A DNA stretch of 27,452 nucleotides from a virus. Below, one piece after another: positions 1 through 26,969 of the stretch (positions are counted from its first letter, which is position 1; the number at the start of each line of letters is the position of its first letter). Position numbers and translations under genes: made by a program. The stretch covers positions 1 to 27,452 of the IMG/VR virus record IMGVR_UViG_3300037585_003522; one strand, given 5' to 3'. The notes beneath the pieces are model-generated. The model searched no databases. It had not been told where the DNA came from and saw nothing but the letters and a program-made list of their open reading frames with translations.

Positions 1-2
1 GC

Positions 3-167
3 CTATTAGACTACGATAACCTAGTAGGTGGATGTAAACAGTTAATCGACGCACTCACCCACGAAGGTTTTATCTTCGACGATGCCCCTAAATACCTAGA
101 AAACCCCAAAATAGAACAAATTAAAGCTCCCACCGAACACATCTATATTAGCCGAGAAATATTATAA
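3..167 (+). CDS. RusA-like Holliday junction resolvase, C-terminal part
   Basis: Only the last 54 codons lie in the window; the start is upstream. The visible part reads L-L-D-Y-D-N-L-V-G-G-C-K, then I-D-A-L, G-F-I-F-D-D-A-P. This is the pattern of RusA-family crossover junction endonucleases, where acidic residues in D-x-D-N-L and in the later D-D bind metal and cut four-way DNA junctions. In phages such enzymes resolve branched replication intermediates before packaging. It ends with TAA at 165-167, and the next gene follows after a short gap holding a GTTTAAAC box. The family call rests on a partial sequence recognised by eye; the catalytic N-terminal half cannot be inspected. Confidence 0.72.
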   Translation, partial: LLDYDNLVGGCKQLIDALTHEGFIFDDAPKYLENPKIEQIKAPTEHIYISREIL

Positions 168-201
168 ATAAATTGGAAATAATAAAAATATTTTGTATAG
201 C

Positions 202-209
202 GTTTAAAC
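202..209. promoter_or_regulatory. Intergenic GTTTAAAC box 1
   Basis: This perfect 8-base palindrome, followed by G, lies in the 58-base gap before the ParB-like gene. A TATAAT-like sequence (222-227) overlaps the ATG at 226. It is one of six intergenic copies of the same box. A promoter or regulator-binding role is an inference from position and recurrence. Confidence 0.45.
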
Positions 210-225
210 GTGCCTAACTTATATA

Positions 226-846
226 ATGCAAAAACTAACAGAATACGCCATAAATGTAACAGAATACAATATAGATAATCTAAAACCTGCCGACTACAAC
301 CCCCGACAACTCACCAAAGACCAATATAAACAATTAACAGACAGCATATCAGCATTCGGGTTCGTTGAACCTGTGGTGGTCAATATTAATACAGAGCGTT
401 TAAATATAATTATTAGTGGACACCAACGGGTAAAATGTGCTAAAAATTTGGGCATAAAAAAAGTACCGTGCGTTGAATTAGATTTAACCTTAGAGCAGGA
501 ACGTGAATTAAACGTACGTATGAATAAAAATACGGGCGAATGGGATTGGGATTTACTTGCCAACGGGTTTGATTTGGATGAACTATTAAATTGGGGCTTT
601 AAGGATAAAGATTTAAAAATATTCGACGACGCTGATGATGATGAAATAGAGCCAGAAATCGAAATTACAGCAGAGTTATTCGAATCGCATAATTATATAG
701 TGCTATACTTTGATAATGATTTAGATTGGCAAACCGCAGAAGATGTTTTCGAATTAAAACCCGTGATAAGGAAAAATAAAAAAATCGGCGATAAGGGATT
801 AGGTAGAGTTATAGAAGGTAAAAAGGTCTTAAAAAAATTATTATGA
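226..846 (+). CDS. ParB-like nuclease-domain protein
   Basis: This 206-residue protein has an N-terminal ParB/Sulfiredoxin-type fold. The A-D-Y-N-P-R segment at residues 22-27 and S-G-H-Q-R at 64-68 match the two conserved boxes of the family, and a T-G-E-W-D-W-D segment follows at 103-109. The C-terminal third, with N-Y-I-V-L-Y-F-D-N, is the tail often seen in phage proteins of this kind. Stand-alone ParB-like genes commonly lie next to terminase genes. Their role is not settled; DNA binding or nuclease activity, sometimes paired with methyltransferases, is known in the wider family. The start ATG has no clear Shine-Dalgarno sequence and no in-frame ATG follows until the T-G-E-W region. The stop overlaps the next start (ATGA). 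Confidence 0.85.
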   Translation: MQKLTEYAINVTEYNIDNLKPADYNPRQLTKDQYKQLTDSISAFGFVEPVVVNINTERLNIIISGHQRVKCAKNLGIKKVPCVELDLTLEQERELNVRMNKNTGEWDWDLLANGFDLDELLNWGFKDKDLKIFDDADDDEIEPEIEITAELFESHNYIVLYFDNDLDWQTAEDVFELKPVIRKNKKIGDKGLGRVIEGKKVLKKLL

Positions 847-1559
847 AAATATTTGTACCATCTTATAAAAGGGCTGGTGATGTTTTAACCCGAAAGGTAA
901 TCCCCGATAGCATTATAGCTATACACGAATTTGAGGAAAAAGATTATAAAAAAAAAGAGGGTGGGGAATTATTAATCATTCCCGATGAATTGAGAGGGAA
1001 TATTGCAAAAGTTAGAAACTTTATCCTCGATAATGCCAATGATGATAAAATAGTTATGTTGGATGATGATGTAAGGGCAATAGGGTATTATGAGGATTGT
1101 ACGCAAAATGAGATGAGCTACAACCAAGTATTAGACTTTATTGATAATGGCTATGTTATGTGCGAAGAGTTGGGTTGCAGATTGTGGGGTATAAACTTAC
1201 AATCAGACCCGAAGTTTTACAGAGAATACAACCCATTTAGTTTATTGGGTGCTGTACTTGGTACGTTTTCTTGTCATTTTAAGCCAGAATTACGATACGA
1301 TGAAAAGCTGTTTTTGAATGAAGATTATGACTTTTTCTTAAAGAATATAAAGAAATACAGGAAGGTGCTAAGATTTTTAAAGTATCATTATATGGCTAAC
1401 CATTTAAATAAGGCTGGTGGGTGTGGTTCATACAGGCTAAAAGATACTGAGATAGAACAATCTAAAATTATGCAAAAAAGGTGGGGCAGTAAAGTGTTTA
1501 GATTTGATATTAATAGAAGCACTAACGGTATTGTTAATGTTCCACTAAAAGGCATATAA
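843..1559 (+). CDS. Probable TET-associated-type glycosyltransferase
   Basis: This 238-residue protein begins M-K-I-F-V-P-S-Y-K-R-A and carries V-M-L-D-D-D-V at 71-77. These are hallmarks of a GT-A fold glycosyltransferase with a metal-binding DxD motif. The N-terminus, the motif spacing and the later N-E-D-Y-D-F-F-L and H-L-N-K-A-G-G segments resemble the phage family called TET-associated glycosyltransferases. That family is linked to sugar decoration of oxidised 5-methyl-pyrimidines in phage DNA. No TET/JBP dioxygenase or methyltransferase gene is in the window, so its substrate here is unknown. It overlaps the ParB-like gene by four bases and the small terminase by one, so it is transcribed with the packaging genes. 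The glycosyltransferase fold is fairly safe; the DNA-modification role is inferred. Confidence 0.65.
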   Translation: MKIFVPSYKRAGDVLTRKVIPDSIIAIHEFEEKDYKKKEGGELLIIPDELRGNIAKVRNFILDNANDDKIVMLDDDVRAIGYYEDCTQNEMSYNQVLDFIDNGYVMCEELGCRLWGINLQSDPKFYREYNPFSLLGAVLGTFSCHFKPELRYDEKLFLNEDYDFFLKNIKKYRKVLRFLKYHYMANHLNKAGGCGSYRLKDTEIEQSKIMQKRWGSKVFRFDINRSTNGIVNVPLKGI

Positions 1560-1909
1560 TGGCAAGACCCCGTATCGATATAGATTATGCTAAATTTACT
1601 AGACTATGCGAAATACAATGCACAAAAGAAGAAATAGCACACGTTTTAGGCTGTAGTGCAGATACGATTAGTAGGGCTTTAAAGCGCGATAAAAGTATGA
1701 GTTTTGCGGACTACTATAAAAAGCACTCAGTAGTAGGCAAAATAGCATTAAGACGATACCAGTTTAATCTAGCTAAAAAAAGCGTACCTATGTGTATTTG
1801 GTTAGGAAAACAATATTTAGGGCAATCTGATATACCTATGGTAGACGAAACAGAATTAACTAGCGGGTTCGATGTAACTGAAATAGTAACGGCAGACAAT
1901 GCAAACTAA
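1559..1909 (+). CDS. terS: Terminase small subunit
   Basis: This 116-residue protein opens with M-A-R-P-R and contains a helix-turn-helix at residues 21-43 (C-T-K-E-E-I-A-H-V-L-G-C-S-A-D-T-I-S-R-A). That is the usual architecture of phage small terminases, which recognise the packaging site and load the large subunit. A helical, likely oligomerising segment follows. The start codon overlaps the upstream stop (TAATG) and the 3' end overlaps the large terminase by 11 bases, the classic terS-terL arrangement. The helix-turn-helix alone would not be specific; position decides the call. Confidence 0.88.
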   Translation: MARPRIDIDYAKFTRLCEIQCTKEEIAHVLGCSADTISRALKRDKSMSFADYYKKHSVVGKIALRRYQFNLAKKSVPMCIWLGKQYLGQSDIPMVDETELTSGFDVTEIVTADNAN

Positions 1910-3143
1910 TTTCAACGTACTACCCCACCAAAATAAATTTATAAGAACTAAAGCTAAATATCCCAGTTTAGTAACGGGGTATGGTGGCGGTAAAACGGTG
2001 GCTTTTGTTCTACGTGCGTTAGCTCATTGTGGTAAAAATATAGGTGGTACTATCTTACTAGCTGAACCTGTATTTCCTATGGTACGAGATGTATTACAGC
2101 CGACATTGGAAAAGTGTTTAAACGATTTGAAATTTGATTATACGTATAAAGCTAGTGATATGCGTTATTTAATTAAGTGGCGTGGTGGCTATGCCCATAT
2201 CATATTACGGAGCGCAGAGAATTGGCGCAGATGGGCAGGGCTAAACCTAGCAGGTGGTGGAATAGACGAAGCTGGGTTACTTAAAGATGGTAAGGCTTGG
2301 CAAATGCTAATAAGCCGTTTACGTGAGGGTAGAAACTTATCTGCTTGGACAAGCACTACGCCCGAAGGATTCAACTGGCACTATGAACATTGGGGGGAAA
2401 GCAAAACTGACGAATATGAATTAATACAGGGCAAAACAGAGGATAACCCATTTCTACCCCAAGAGTTTATAGATAGTCTTAAAGCTAATTACGATGATAA
2501 ACTAATAGAAGCCTATATGATGGGCAACTATGTTAATTTGCAATATGGAGCTACTTACTATGGTTACAGTAGAGAGAGAAACAATAGCGAAAACGCAGTA
2601 TATGACCCAAACCTACCAGTCCGTTTATCGCTGGACTTCAACGTCTTCCCGATGTGTGCCAGCCTTTGGCAACTCAAGACGGGCAGGGAAAAAGAAAAGG
2701 TAGTCGTATTCGATGAAGTTAAAATTAAACACCAAGATACGGGCGACCTAATGACCCAACGAATGATAGACGAGTGCAAACGCCGATACCCTAAAGCTAG
2801 ATTTATATGCTATCCCGACCCAAGTGGGAAAAGCCGTTCTACAAACTCTACTAAATCAGACCACGATATAATACGTTTAAACGGCATAGAGTTACGTGCT
2901 AAACTTAAAGCCCCAAGCATAACAGATAGCGTTAATGCTGTTAATAAAAGTTTTGATTTTACAATTATTAACCCAAAATGTAAGGGTTTAATTAAAGATT
3001 TTGAGCAGGTAGTAAATAAAGAGGGAACGCGCGAAATAGATAAAAGTAATAAGGATTTAACACATTTCAGCGATGGCTACCGCTATGGCATAGATTTTGA
3101 ATTACCTATAAGAAAACCACAAACACGAACCTATATGGCGTAA
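1899..3143 (+). CDS. terL: Terminase large subunit
   Basis: This 414-residue protein is the ATP-driven DNA packaging motor and headful or site-specific nuclease. Walker A is G-Y-G-G-G-K-T at 27-33. Walker B with the catalytic Glu is G-G-G-I-D-E-A-G at 119-126. The coupling motif is T-S-T-T-P-E-G at 151-157. The C-terminal RNase H-like nuclease shows S-L-D-F-N around Asp246, a second acidic strand V-F-D-E-V near 270-274, P-D-P-S-G at 306-310, and H-F-S-D-G-Y-R near the C-terminus. Length and motif order are normal for a siphovirus enzyme. The start lies inside the end of the small subunit gene, suggesting translational coupling. The portal gene follows after ten bases. Confidence 0.97.
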   Translation: MQTNFNVLPHQNKFIRTKAKYPSLVTGYGGGKTVAFVLRALAHCGKNIGGTILLAEPVFPMVRDVLQPTLEKCLNDLKFDYTYKASDMRYLIKWRGGYAHIILRSAENWRRWAGLNLAGGGIDEAGLLKDGKAWQMLISRLREGRNLSAWTSTTPEGFNWHYEHWGESKTDEYELIQGKTEDNPFLPQEFIDSLKANYDDKLIEAYMMGNYVNLQYGATYYGYSRERNNSENAVYDPNLPVRLSLDFNVFPMCASLWQLKTGREKEKVVVFDEVKIKHQDTGDLMTQRMIDECKRRYPKARFICYPDPSGKSRSTNSTKSDHDIIRLNGIELRAKLKAPSITDSVNAVNKSFDFTIINPKCKGLIKDFEQVVNKEGTREIDKSNKDLTHFSDGYRYGIDFELPIRKPQTRTYMA

Positions 3144-3153
3144 AAGGAAAAAT

Positions 3154-4497
3154 ATGTTTTATTATAATGGCACAACAGACGCAATTAAAACAACACTAGA
3201 CCAATTAGAAACTAAAATGGGGGGCGTATCAAAACATTCCGAACGTGATGCGTGTATCGATTACTATAAGTATAATGGTACTGAAAAATATATAGCTAAA
3301 TATTTTAAAGGAAGCCTACAAAAAGAGATACCACTTTATACCCAAAACTTTTCACAACGCTTAATTAATAGGATAAGTATGGTGTACAAAAATGCACCTA
3401 TACGTACAGTAGAGAATGACAGTTACGTAGATTTTATTAATTCAAAAGACTATCAACTAAAAAAGATAGAGCGATTACATAATTTACTAGGAACTATAGC
3501 TGTAAAAATTTGCCCCGATTACGATGGGTTAATGCAGTATATGCCAGTAGTTAAGTTTGTAGCATTTTGTGATGATATTGATACTATTACCCCAACTGCT
3601 ATCGCTTATAAAATAGGCGACGACCCTAGTGATTCATCCAATAATCGTTATGTATTTTGGTCAAAGGATGAACATTTTATTTTCGACAGTAATGGGGCTG
3701 TTCATAACCCAACTGAAGATAATGTAGATATGGTAAACCCTTACGGGGTATTGCCTTTTGTATTCCTGCAACCTAGTACGCAAGTTGATGAATTTTGGAA
3801 CGATGGGGCAAAAGATATAGTAACAGCAAATAGGCAAATAGATATAGCTATGACAATGTTACAGCACCATATTCGTAGTGCAGGTGGGCAGTTTGTTATA
3901 CAGGGCAGGGTAGATAGTAACCAAATAGAATTAGGGCTAAATAAAGCAGTTATCATCGAAGAAGGTAGTATGACTAATCTGAACCCAAATATAGATATTA
4001 ATAGCATTGTAGATGGTATAAAATTCCAGTTACAGCATATATTTCAAAACCATCACGTTACTTTCGATTATGGGATTAATGGCAGTAAATCGGGAGTTAG
4101 TCTAAAAATAGAAAACCTAGAATTAATTGAATCGCGTGAAGATGATGTAGAGAAATACAGAATAGCAGAGCGGGAGATTTATGCTATAGAAGTTGCCATA
4201 GCAGAAGCATTAGGCTCACCTATAAACTCAGACTTTAGTATCGATTTTGCAGAAGTCGAGTTTCCTCTAACCCCCGAACAAGAGCAAGCCCGTTGGGATT
4301 GGCTTTTCGCCAATGGCTTAAAGGATAAGGTTGATTACCTTATGGAATCTGACCCCGACGGCTTCCCCTCCCGTGAAGATGCTGAAGAATATTTATCGGT
4401 ACGTGGTGGTAGTGCTAACAAGGTAAAAAATATGTCTGATACAGAGGACAATGCGTTTAAACTTAATAGCGGGGTAAGTGCAGATGCCATACAATAA
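3154..4497 (+). CDS. Portal protein
   Basis: This 447-residue protein follows the terminase directly and has the size and character of an SPP1-gp6-like portal, the dodecameric ring at the capsid vertex through which DNA enters and leaves. The N-terminal segment with the Q-N-F-S-Q-R-L-I-N-R region resembles the portal clip/wing start. The middle part includes the acidic, helical D-I-V-T-A-N-R-Q-I-D-I-A stretch typical of the stem region. An AAGGA ribosome site lies a few bases before the ATG. The acidic, Ser-rich C-terminus ends just after the start of a tiny basic reading frame. Family assignment is by eye plus strong positional support. Confidence 0.92.
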   Translation: MFYYNGTTDAIKTTLDQLETKMGGVSKHSERDACIDYYKYNGTEKYIAKYFKGSLQKEIPLYTQNFSQRLINRISMVYKNAPIRTVENDSYVDFINSKDYQLKKIERLHNLLGTIAVKICPDYDGLMQYMPVVKFVAFCDDIDTITPTAIAYKIGDDPSDSSNNRYVFWSKDEHFIFDSNGAVHNPTEDNVDMVNPYGVLPFVFLQPSTQVDEFWNDGAKDIVTANRQIDIAMTMLQHHIRSAGGQFVIQGRVDSNQIELGLNKAVIIEEGSMTNLNPNIDINSIVDGIKFQLQHIFQNHHVTFDYGINGSKSGVSLKIENLELIESREDDVEKYRIAEREIYAIEVAIAEALGSPINSDFSIDFAEVEFPLTPEQEQARWDWLFANGLKDKVDYLMESDPDGFPSREDAEEYLSVRGGSANKVKNMSDTEDNAFKLNSGVSADAIQ

Positions 4498-25756: not shown

Positions 25757-25767
25757 TTTTCCACACC

Positions 25768-25775
25768 GTTTAAAC
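25768..25775. promoter_or_regulatory. Intergenic GTTTAAAC box 5
   Basis: The copy starts 12 bases after the last tail gene stop and is the only intergenic one not followed by G. An AT-rich run with seven T follows. It does not stand close to a gene start, so it may mark an end or an operator rather than a gene-proximal start. Confidence 0.35.
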
Positions 25776-25820
25776 ACCCCAAATAGTTAAATTTTTTTAT
25801 TATAACGATAAAATTGCACG

Positions 25821-25835
25821 TAAAGTAATACTTTA
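25821..25835. promoter_or_regulatory. Palindrome TAAAGTAATACTTTA, candidate operator
   Basis: Two seven-base arms, TAAAGTA and TACTTTA, are perfect complements around a single A. Such symmetry is typical of sites bound by dimeric repressors, and it lies between tail and early-type genes. No bound protein is known from the window. Confidence 0.4.
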
Positions 25836-25857
25836 ACTGCTTTACTATCTCTCCTTA

Positions 25858-25880
25858 TGAGAATCGGTTTCTCACTTTTT
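25858..25880 (+). terminator. Factor-independent terminator after the tail genes
   Basis: TGAGAA (25858-25863) pairs with TTCTCA (25869-25874) around a TCGGT loop, and TTTTT follows at 25876-25880. The stem is six bases, so strength is moderate. It lies about 100 bases after the last tail gene and would end the late transcript. Confidence 0.55.
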
Positions 25881-25990
25881 AGGTCTGTATATACTATATA
25901 AACACTAAAGTAGCAGGAAACGGCAATTTTAGCCCTCAGAATTAAAATCACAAAAGTCAAGCATTTTTTATATCCCTCTATAATTCAACT

Positions 25991-25998
25991 GTTTAAAC
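25991..25998. promoter_or_regulatory. Intergenic GTTTAAAC box 6
   Basis: The copy, followed by G, precedes a long T/A-rich run and the candidate structured RNA beginning near 26070. It is a reasonable candidate for the start signal of the rightward transcript. Confidence 0.4.
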
Positions 25999-26069
25999 GA
26001 ACCCACTAGGAAAACTTTTTTTATTTATTTTAATTATTTATTTGGTTTATATAATATAAACTGTATTAG

Positions 26070-26297
26070 ATTTCAATAGCGCAGGGGCGCTACGTTTTTT
26101 GAAATTGTTGTTGAGGGTGGGCGAGCAGGGAGAATCGACCCCAATAGACAACGGCACACGCCACAGACATTAGTAGGTGCTTCTGATGTATAAATGACAC
26201 AGAAGATGAACAAAGAGCCTAACCGTGTAACACCAAGCAGTATCGGGATTGTAGGGAGCGTTTTAGGAAACAGACTATTATAACCAAGTGCCAGCGA
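26070..26297 (+). ncRNA. Candidate structured RNA or long leader, class unknown
   Basis: Base composition becomes more GC-rich than the surrounding sequence although no reading frame is present. Several stems can be drawn. ATTTCAA (26070-26076) pairs with TTGAAAT (26099-26105), with TAGCGC/GCGCTA inside (26077-26092). TTG(A)GGG at 26111-26117 pairs with CCCCAA at 26139-26144. CTTCTG-A-TGT at 26180-26189 pairs with ACACAGAAG at 26197-26205. CCTAA near 26218 can pair with TTAGG near 26268. The inner first hairpin is followed by TTTTTT (26095-26100) and could alternatively act as a terminator. I do not match it to a named RNA class; a group I intron and tRNA were considered and not supported. 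Confidence 0.4.
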
Positions 26298-26400
26298 AGC
26301 CCACCTATTAAAAGGGGGCTACCCTTAATGCAGGCTATGGCGGTTGCAACCCCGCATAAGAAATGCAGAGCAAGGGCAAAAACAAATAAAACTAAAAGGA
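26298..26400 (+). promoter_or_regulatory. Structured 5' leader element, copy A
   Basis: An upstream hairpin AGCCC/GGGCT (26298-26302 with 26316-26320) is followed by a compact three-stem element. P1 is CCCTT 26322-26326 with AAGGG 26372-26376. P2 is TGCA 26329-26332 with TGCA 26364-26367. P3 is AT-(G)-GCGG 26337-26343 with CCGCAT 26352-26357, with a bulged G and the loop TTGCAACC. An A-rich tail and AAAAGGA ribosome site then lead into the ATG at 26410. A second copy with compensatory changes lies at 26711-26820, strong evidence that the RNA fold matters. It may be a riboswitch, protein-binding leader or stability element. Confidence 0.75.
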
Positions 26401-26409
26401 ATATATATT

Positions 26410-26706
26410 ATGGAATACAAAAGCGAAGCAGTTGAAAAAGTACAAGTAAGGGTAGAAGAAAATGTTAATACTAGAGGTGATGGTTTAAATTATACTAATA
26501 TAAAAATAGACCTACCTAGTGGAAAAGGAGTTTGGATTACTGTGGCAGAACACGAATTAGACGGACACGAGTGGGTGAGTGAAAGGATAAGCGTACACAC
26601 CGATAAGCCTAATACAAATATTACCAAAAAGAAACAAACTCATAAGAATACCACTTGGACAGAGATAGAGCAAGACGATAAAAGTTTACTTACTGTTTTC
26701 CATTAA
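26410..26706 (+). CDS. Small protein behind leader copy A, function unknown
   Basis: I place the start at the ATG preceded by AAAAGGA; the frame is open further upstream to a TTG at 26344, but that lies inside the conserved RNA element. The 98-residue product is hydrophilic. It has likely beta strands (Y-T-N-I-K-I-D-L-P-S-G-K-G-V-W-I-T-V-A), then H-E-L-D-G-H-E-W-V, and a Lys/Thr/Asn-rich end. There is no membrane segment and no motif I recognise. It is the first gene after the late-to-early boundary. Confidence 0.72.
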   Translation: MEYKSEAVEKVQVRVEENVNTRGDGLNYTNIKIDLPSGKGVWITVAEHELDGHEWVSERISVHTDKPNTNITKKKQTHKNTTWTEIEQDDKSLLTVFH

Positions 26707-26710
26707 CCCT

Positions 26711-26820
26711 TAACCCTGCCCCCTTAATTGGGGGCAACCCTTAAACTAGCCTATGACAGTTGCAAGCCTGTATAAATAGTGAGCAAGGGCAAAAATAAAT
26801 AAAATAAATATAAGGAATAA
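26711..26820 (+). promoter_or_regulatory. Structured 5' leader element, copy B
   Basis: The hairpin TGCCCCC/GGGGGCA (26717-26723 with 26730-26736) precedes the same element as copy A. P1 is CCCTT 26738-26742 with AAGGG 26785-26789. P2 is ACTA 26745-26748 with TAGT 26777-26780. P3 is AT-(G)-ACAG 26753-26759 with CTGTAT 26768-26773, again with the bulged G and the loop TTGCAAGC. GAGCAAGGGCAAAAA follows as in copy A, then AAGGA and the ATG at 26826. P2 and P3 differ from copy A by paired changes on both strands. The P1 5' sequence AACCCTTAA also occurs at 26705-26713, so an alternative pairing exists. Confidence 0.75.
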
Positions 26821-26825
26821 CGATA

Positions 26826-26969
26826 ATGGATAATGAAATAATAGCAATTTATGAGAAATATTTAGACAGGATTTGGAATGACTTATCTAAGGATGACCAA
26901 ATAAGGCTTGAAGGTCATTTTAACGGGATTATAAATGAAATTGATGAATGTTTAGAGGGAGAGGAATAA
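26826..26969 (+). CDS. 47-residue acidic protein behind leader copy B
   Basis: The frame starts at an ATG with AAGGA about ten bases upstream and ends with TAA at 26967-26969. The product (M-D-N-E-I-I-A-I-Y-E-K-Y-L, ending C-L-E-G-E-E) is acidic and mainly helical. It is too short for a domain call and I recognise no family. Good ribosome site, the dedicated structured leader and tight spacing to the next gene (one base) support it as real. Confidence 0.68.
   Translation: MDNEIIAIYEKYLDRIWNDLSKDDQIRLEGHFNGIINEIDECLEGEE

Follow-up and report, generated by a model that had tools for sequence, protein, structure and literature searches.

Two tandem phage leaders assigned to the compact type-P1 twister ribozymes, with a predicted role in cutting the transcript at gene junctions

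What are the two similar leader RNAs that precede two adjacent small genes of a phage, and what might they do to the transcript that carries them? The window, i.e., the whole stretch of DNA that was analysed, is the 27.5-kb virus record IMGVR_UViG_3300037585_003522, in which phage terminase, capsid, and tail genes are present according to PHROG and Pfam matches. A sister record (L033) is 99.97% identical to the window over 25.75 kb and continues beyond the window end with Rad52-like, replication, RusA, and ParB-methyltransferase-like genes, names which were read off the translations. A module difference was seen between the two records: window 1-1701 encodes a ParB-like protein and, in a separate gene, a 238-aa protein, whereas L033:1-1630 encodes a ParB-DNA-methyltransferase-like fusion.

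Both leaders, here called copies A and B, are located on the coding strand. Copy A precedes gene 1 (98 aa; 26410..26706, plus strand), which has AAAAGGAAT ahead of its ATG, and it follows a non-coding stretch of about 540 nt, with no gene directly 5'. Copy B lies between gene 1 and gene 2 (47 aa; 26826..26969, plus strand, with AAGGA ahead of the ATG). The products of genes 1 and 2 gave no PHROG or Pfam match. An IMG/VR search with the downstream proteins (98 aa, SprT-like) returned the same phage only, and a 91-aa protein was without match in deposited phages. The 540 non-coding nt ahead of copy A (25757-26297) are nearly unchanged in the sister record and contain an intrinsic-terminator-like hairpin (26077-26092) followed by CGTTTTTT. 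That the 240 nt ahead of copy A form a larger structured RNA was unsupported (fold z -0.54). Elsewhere in the sister record, at about 7000-7145 of L033 on the minus strand and behind the SprT-like gene, a non-coding tRNA-like stretch has a T-arm (GGCGGTTCAATTCCGCC) and acceptor-like ends; ARAGORN made no call there.

An earlier note, made from the letters of the window, had described a duplicated leader, and the two copies are indeed present, with a gap of 357 bases and 416 bases from start to start. They share the proposed architecture: a GC hairpin, CCCTT/AAGGG, TGCA/TGCA in copy A or ACTA/TAGT in copy B, a loop with TTGCAA, the string GAGCAAGGGCAAAAA, and an A-rich tail, and in both an AAGGA ribosome site stands 9 nt 5' of the ATG. 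The apical stem carries two G-C to A-U exchanges between the copies, just as claimed. RNAfold reproduced the described structure in both copies. The folding energy of the bare cores is ordinary (z -0.55 and -0.14) and thus does not by itself speak for the core; with the upstream hairpin included, z is -1.69 and -2.64. The hairpin of copy A (26298..26320, plus strand, RNAfold) directly precedes the core, has one bulge, and is below the threshold of the hairpin test. The hairpin of copy B (26718..26735, plus strand, RNAfold) is likewise directly 5' of its core, starts 12 nt past the gene 1 stop, and has a stem score of 20.

The identity of the core came from Rfam. At the curated gathering cut-off, no family was reported anywhere in the window. 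When searched by E-value, twister-P1 (RF03160) aligned to both copies over its full length (1-68 of 68 positions), with 35.0 bits (E 1.3e-5) for copy A at 26322..26376 and 47.0 bits (E 4.5e-9) for copy B at 26738..26789, both on the plus strand. The two copies of the sister record scored 47.0 and 33.5 bits. The copies were missed because the cut-off of RF03160 is 67.2 bits, which both fail to reach; this value is a database threshold and not a property of the class, and the model does not score pseudoknots and expects a P3 stem.

The essential stems P1, P2, and P4 are present in both copies in twister order, as seen in the Rfam alignment and in the covariance model R1 described below. In copy A, P1 is 26322-26325/26373-26376, P2 is 26329-26332/26364-26367, and P4 is 26340-26343/26352-26355. 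In copy B, the same stems are 26738-26741/26786-26789, 26745-26748/26777-26780, and 26756-26759/26768-26771, and the RNA reads CCCU-UAA-ACUA-GCC-UAU-GACAG-UUGCAAGCC-UGU-A-UAAA-UAGU-GAGCA-AGGG. What had been taken for a third stem with a bulged G is actually the twister linker from P2 to P4, to which the bulged G belongs, together with P4 itself.

Pseudoknot T1 joins L4 with the 3' side of L1 by three Watson-Crick pairs, which are UGC/GCA in both copies (26345-26347/26370-26372 in A; 26761-26763/26783-26785 in B), where the Rfam consensus has CCC/GGG. Its L4 half is part of the TTGCAA loop and its L1 half part of the GAGCAA string. The earlier note had rightly regarded this loop as kept; the reason for its conservation is that it supplies one half of a pseudoknot. 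Pseudoknot T2 joins L2 with L4 by two pairs: the internal GGC of copy A or GCC of copy B pairs with CC or GC in the loop. The result is GG/CC in A (26333-26334/26350-26351) and GC/GC in B (26749-26750/26766-26767), a two-sided change.

The highly conserved nucleotides of L1 and L4 (UAA, GU..CAA, UAA, and GAG) all occur in both copies, and the deviations are the paired T1 and T2 changes and a 3-nt insertion in copy A. By the twister-P1 alignment, the predicted scissile U-A step in L1 and a candidate active-site G are present as residues at U26326-A26327 and G26368 in copy A and at U26742-A26743 and G26781 in copy B (plus strand). Copy B presumably aligns without gaps to the minimal twister of O. 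sativa, and the first G of GAG is what we take to be its G45. In that ribozyme, A7 and G45 are the catalytic residues, P0, P3, and P5 are optional in the class, and the O. sativa RNA cleaves at about 2.4 per min without P3 and P5 (PMC5408937). It is near certain, judged from sequence and predicted fold, that both leaders are twister ribozymes, and from the same features we infer that copies A and B cleave themselves.

Strict sequence patterns of the copies returned the same phage and chance hits only. A looser pattern was used for IMG/VR, with the core letters fixed and with P2, P4, two of the three T1 pairs, and one of the two T2 pairs left open, except that one side of the innermost P4 pair was also fixed. 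The search returned 75 stretches, i.e., 72 distinct viral elements after removal of near-duplicates, where by our own estimate about one or none was expected by chance. T1 and T2 pair in all 72. The T1 kinds comprise CAC/GUG, GAC/GUC, UGC/GCA, UCC/GGA, CUC/GAG, UAC/GUA, AAC/GUU, and CCC/GGG, plus one G-U variant. L048, a true relative, was gained with a pattern in which T1 was set to UGC/GCA. In genome contigs, only 17 stretches were returned from 257 Gb; two of these (L128 and L138) have unpaired T1 and T2 and look like chance. A hit in a Bacteroides uniformis phage (L141; 16 bits with model R1, E 0.13) was not counted.

Among 62 non-redundant relatives, 95.4% of cells were paired vs. 74.0% after shuffling, and none of 500 shuffles equalled this value. 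Two-sided changes were found at 14 of the 17 pairs, the other three being wholly or largely fixed by the search pattern. T1 and T2 were paired in every relative, with two T1 pairs covarying. The claim that the differences between the two leaders are compensatory and reflect selection on RNA shape is thus strongly supported by the wider alignment. Both forms of T2, GC/GC and GG/CC, occur among the relatives (GG/CC in L062, L079, and L100), and the insertion of copy A, which falls after P4 and ahead of the 3' strand of P2, is also seen in L091, L099, L113, L074, L081, and L116.

Covariance model R1 was built from these 62 relatives, none of which is from this phage. In the 27-kb window it found copy B (62.8 bits, E 1.2e-17), copy A (51.0 bits, E 7e-14), and nothing else, and it had no hit on 16 chance loci used as controls. 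Since R1 matches exactly two sites in 27 kb, the leader pair exceeds chance. The class membership is established by sequence, structure, and pseudoknot covariation, and A and B join, as new members, a class of ribozymes that was already known. With an E-value threshold, the compact phage twisters that were scored have 36-61 bits, all below 67.2, and at the cut-off RF03160 was reported in none of 24 carrier loci. At Rfam's cut-off this population therefore stays unannotated, and its size and regularity seem under-recognised.

The relatives recur in many phages at gene junctions with one layout: stop codon, GC hairpin, twister, ribosome site, and start codon. Of 92 elements, 70 have a stop codon on their own strand no more than 45 nt ahead of the cut, compared with 23% of random positions and, for the opposite strand, 24 of the 92; in about a quarter of the elements no upstream stop codon was detected. 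In 60 of the 92, the 60 nt that follow GAG contain a ribosome site with a start codon, which holds for 17.5% of random positions and, for the opposite strand, for 11 of the 92. Of 88 elements, 68% have a GC hairpin whose end is 0-7 nt from the cut on its 5' side; shifted positions gave 5-10% and shuffled sequences 5%. The downstream genes are diverse and many of them are unrelated. Arrays also occur, with one copy per gene or per few genes: L081 has five copies in 2.4 kb, L074 has four, and L058, L091, and L099 have three each. In the literature searched, whose coverage was incomplete, we found no description of this unit of hairpin, twister, and gene.

Other self-cleaving classes occur in the same loci, namely pistol (L057, L098), hammerhead-II (L088, L060, L072), twister-P5 (L072, L116), and RAGATH-16 (L103); some of the pistol, hammerhead-II, and twister-P5 copies are directly behind stop codons. 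The window itself has no match to pistol (RF02679), Hammerhead_II (RF02276), Twister-P5 (RF02684), or RAGATH-16 (RF03047). The 4.5-kb phage piece L072 carries five ribozymes of three classes at 1842-4105: three twister-P5, one compact twister, and one hammerhead-II. The first four, i.e., the twister-P5 copies and the compact twister, begin 1-28 nt past the stops of successive ORFs, and the hammerhead is further on. Four hammerhead-II and two compact twisters were seen in L088, and three pistol and one compact twister in L057. In the crass-like phage cr6_1 (NC_055894.1, 33635-33688; L140), a compact twister of 44 bits is intergenic, upstream of a run of plus-strand genes. In L062:4866-5098 and L100:2926-3158, a compact twister is located within a phage tRNA array and ends 3 nt before a tRNA-Ser gene; possibly, it is a ribozyme for tRNA 5' processing.

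Very probably, given these sequence features, both leaders are compact type-P1 twisters that lack P3, stand directly behind a GC hairpin, and cut the phage transcript at a gene junction during transcription. The nascent RNA would fold into P1, P2, and P4 with T1 and T2 and then cut at U26326|A26327 and U26742|A26743, which would separate genes 1 and 2 into messages of their own. The upstream piece would carry a stable hairpin near its 3' end, followed by 6-7 nt that terminate in a 2',3'-cyclic phosphate. The downstream mRNA would start with a 5'-OH and leftover P2/P4 structure; the A-rich stretch that comes next, ahead of the ribosome site, would be unstructured. If both copies cut, arithmetic from the predicted sites gives a 416-nt RNA (26327..26742, plus strand) with gene 1 and its ribosome site, a 5'-OH start, and a 3' end closed by hairpin B. 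This hairpin may protect the 3' end of the gene 1 message, and the 5'-OH start may alter its decay. We infer that the use of the cut is transcript processing and stabilisation. Against this explanation stand the scores below the Rfam cut-off, a trait of all the compact phage twisters that were scored, the insertion and changed T2 of copy A, the quarter or so of relatives in which no upstream stop was detected, and the non-coding stretch, in place of a gene, ahead of copy A. The suggestion of an mRNA stability element in the earlier note survives only as something to which the predicted cut might lead.

Could twisters that do cut serve another end, such as a circular RNA of gene 1 whose ends are joined by RtcB or by the reverse reaction? 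P1 is identical in A and B, so that the released piece could bind again to copy A through its 3' end, and twister products carry termini suiting RtcB. Adjacent copies of the same phage are also more cross-compatible than copies across phages (3.25 vs. 2.30 of 5 pairs). However, compatibility is equal in the useless direction (about 3.2), and hence kinship explains it and natural circular mRNA gains no support from it. Many tandem arrays, moreover, have incompatible P1 strands, and a search for circular or spliced products of prophage hammerheads was negative (PMC3088659), so that we consider this use unlikely.

The copies might instead be twister remnants, inactive but retained as structured leaders. 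Copy A has diverged further, with 35.0 bits and the 3-nt insertion, and the sister strains differ by one C-to-U change in its P4; this change, however, keeps the pair as G-U, and the insertion site matches that of relatives. Both copies, moreover, have an intact U-A step and GAG motif, all four pairs of P2, and both pseudoknots, and the two-sided T2 change in copy A is unexpected for a decaying element, which leaves this reading only a slim chance. The earlier note had proposed a new riboswitch or a site for a phage protein co-regulating both genes, for which the position ahead of two genes and the structural conservation speak. We regard this as barely credible: the twister fold, a known self-cleaving class, accounts for every conserved feature, no riboswitch family matched the leader region in Rfam even at E up to 10, and the relatives precede many unrelated genes and sit among phage tRNA genes, unlike a ligand-specific switch. 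A tRNA-like or tmRNA reading found no call by ARAGORN.

Beyond the transcript-cutting role of this leader pair, we lean slightly towards a broader reading, in which hairpin and ribozyme cassettes with interchangeable classes act as gene-junction punctuation in many phages and the transcript would self-dice, protein-free, into single-gene mRNAs. If true, such mRNAs would begin with a 5'-OH and be protected by a hairpin at the 3' end, and the compact twister would be a common cutter hidden by the Rfam cut-off. About 90 compact phage copies with one layout make the processing idea testable by mapping of 5'-OH ends.

The role of bacterial and phage twisters has been described as largely speculative (PMC5408937). 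The copies share P1-P2-P4, T1 and T2, UAA with the U-A step, and the GAG motif with the minimal twister-P1 of O. sativa type (RF03160), and as in that minimal form a 3-nt linker replaces the P3 of fuller twister-P1 RNAs. They differ from RF03160 in T1 (UGC/GCA, not CCC/GGG), the score below the cut-off, the upstream GC hairpin, and the tandem arrangement in a phage. Pistol, Hammerhead_II, Twister-P5, and RAGATH-16 share phage loci with compact twisters, some at gene junctions, but their folds differ. The setting is of a known kind. Tandem hammerheads bracketing prophage genes cleave in vitro and in E. coli, and processing into gene-length mRNAs was proposed for them by Perreault and colleagues (PMC3088659); there, too, several self-cleaving ribozymes bracket single phage genes, although the ribozyme class is another. 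Theta ribozymes of gut phages are likewise phage-encoded self-cleaving RNAs that process phage transcripts, in their case tRNAs (PMC10879173). Unlike the leaders of the window, whose neighbours are protein genes, they have an HDV-like fold and process tRNA 3' trailers, whereas in L062 it is a compact twister that stands 5' of a phage tRNA-Ser.
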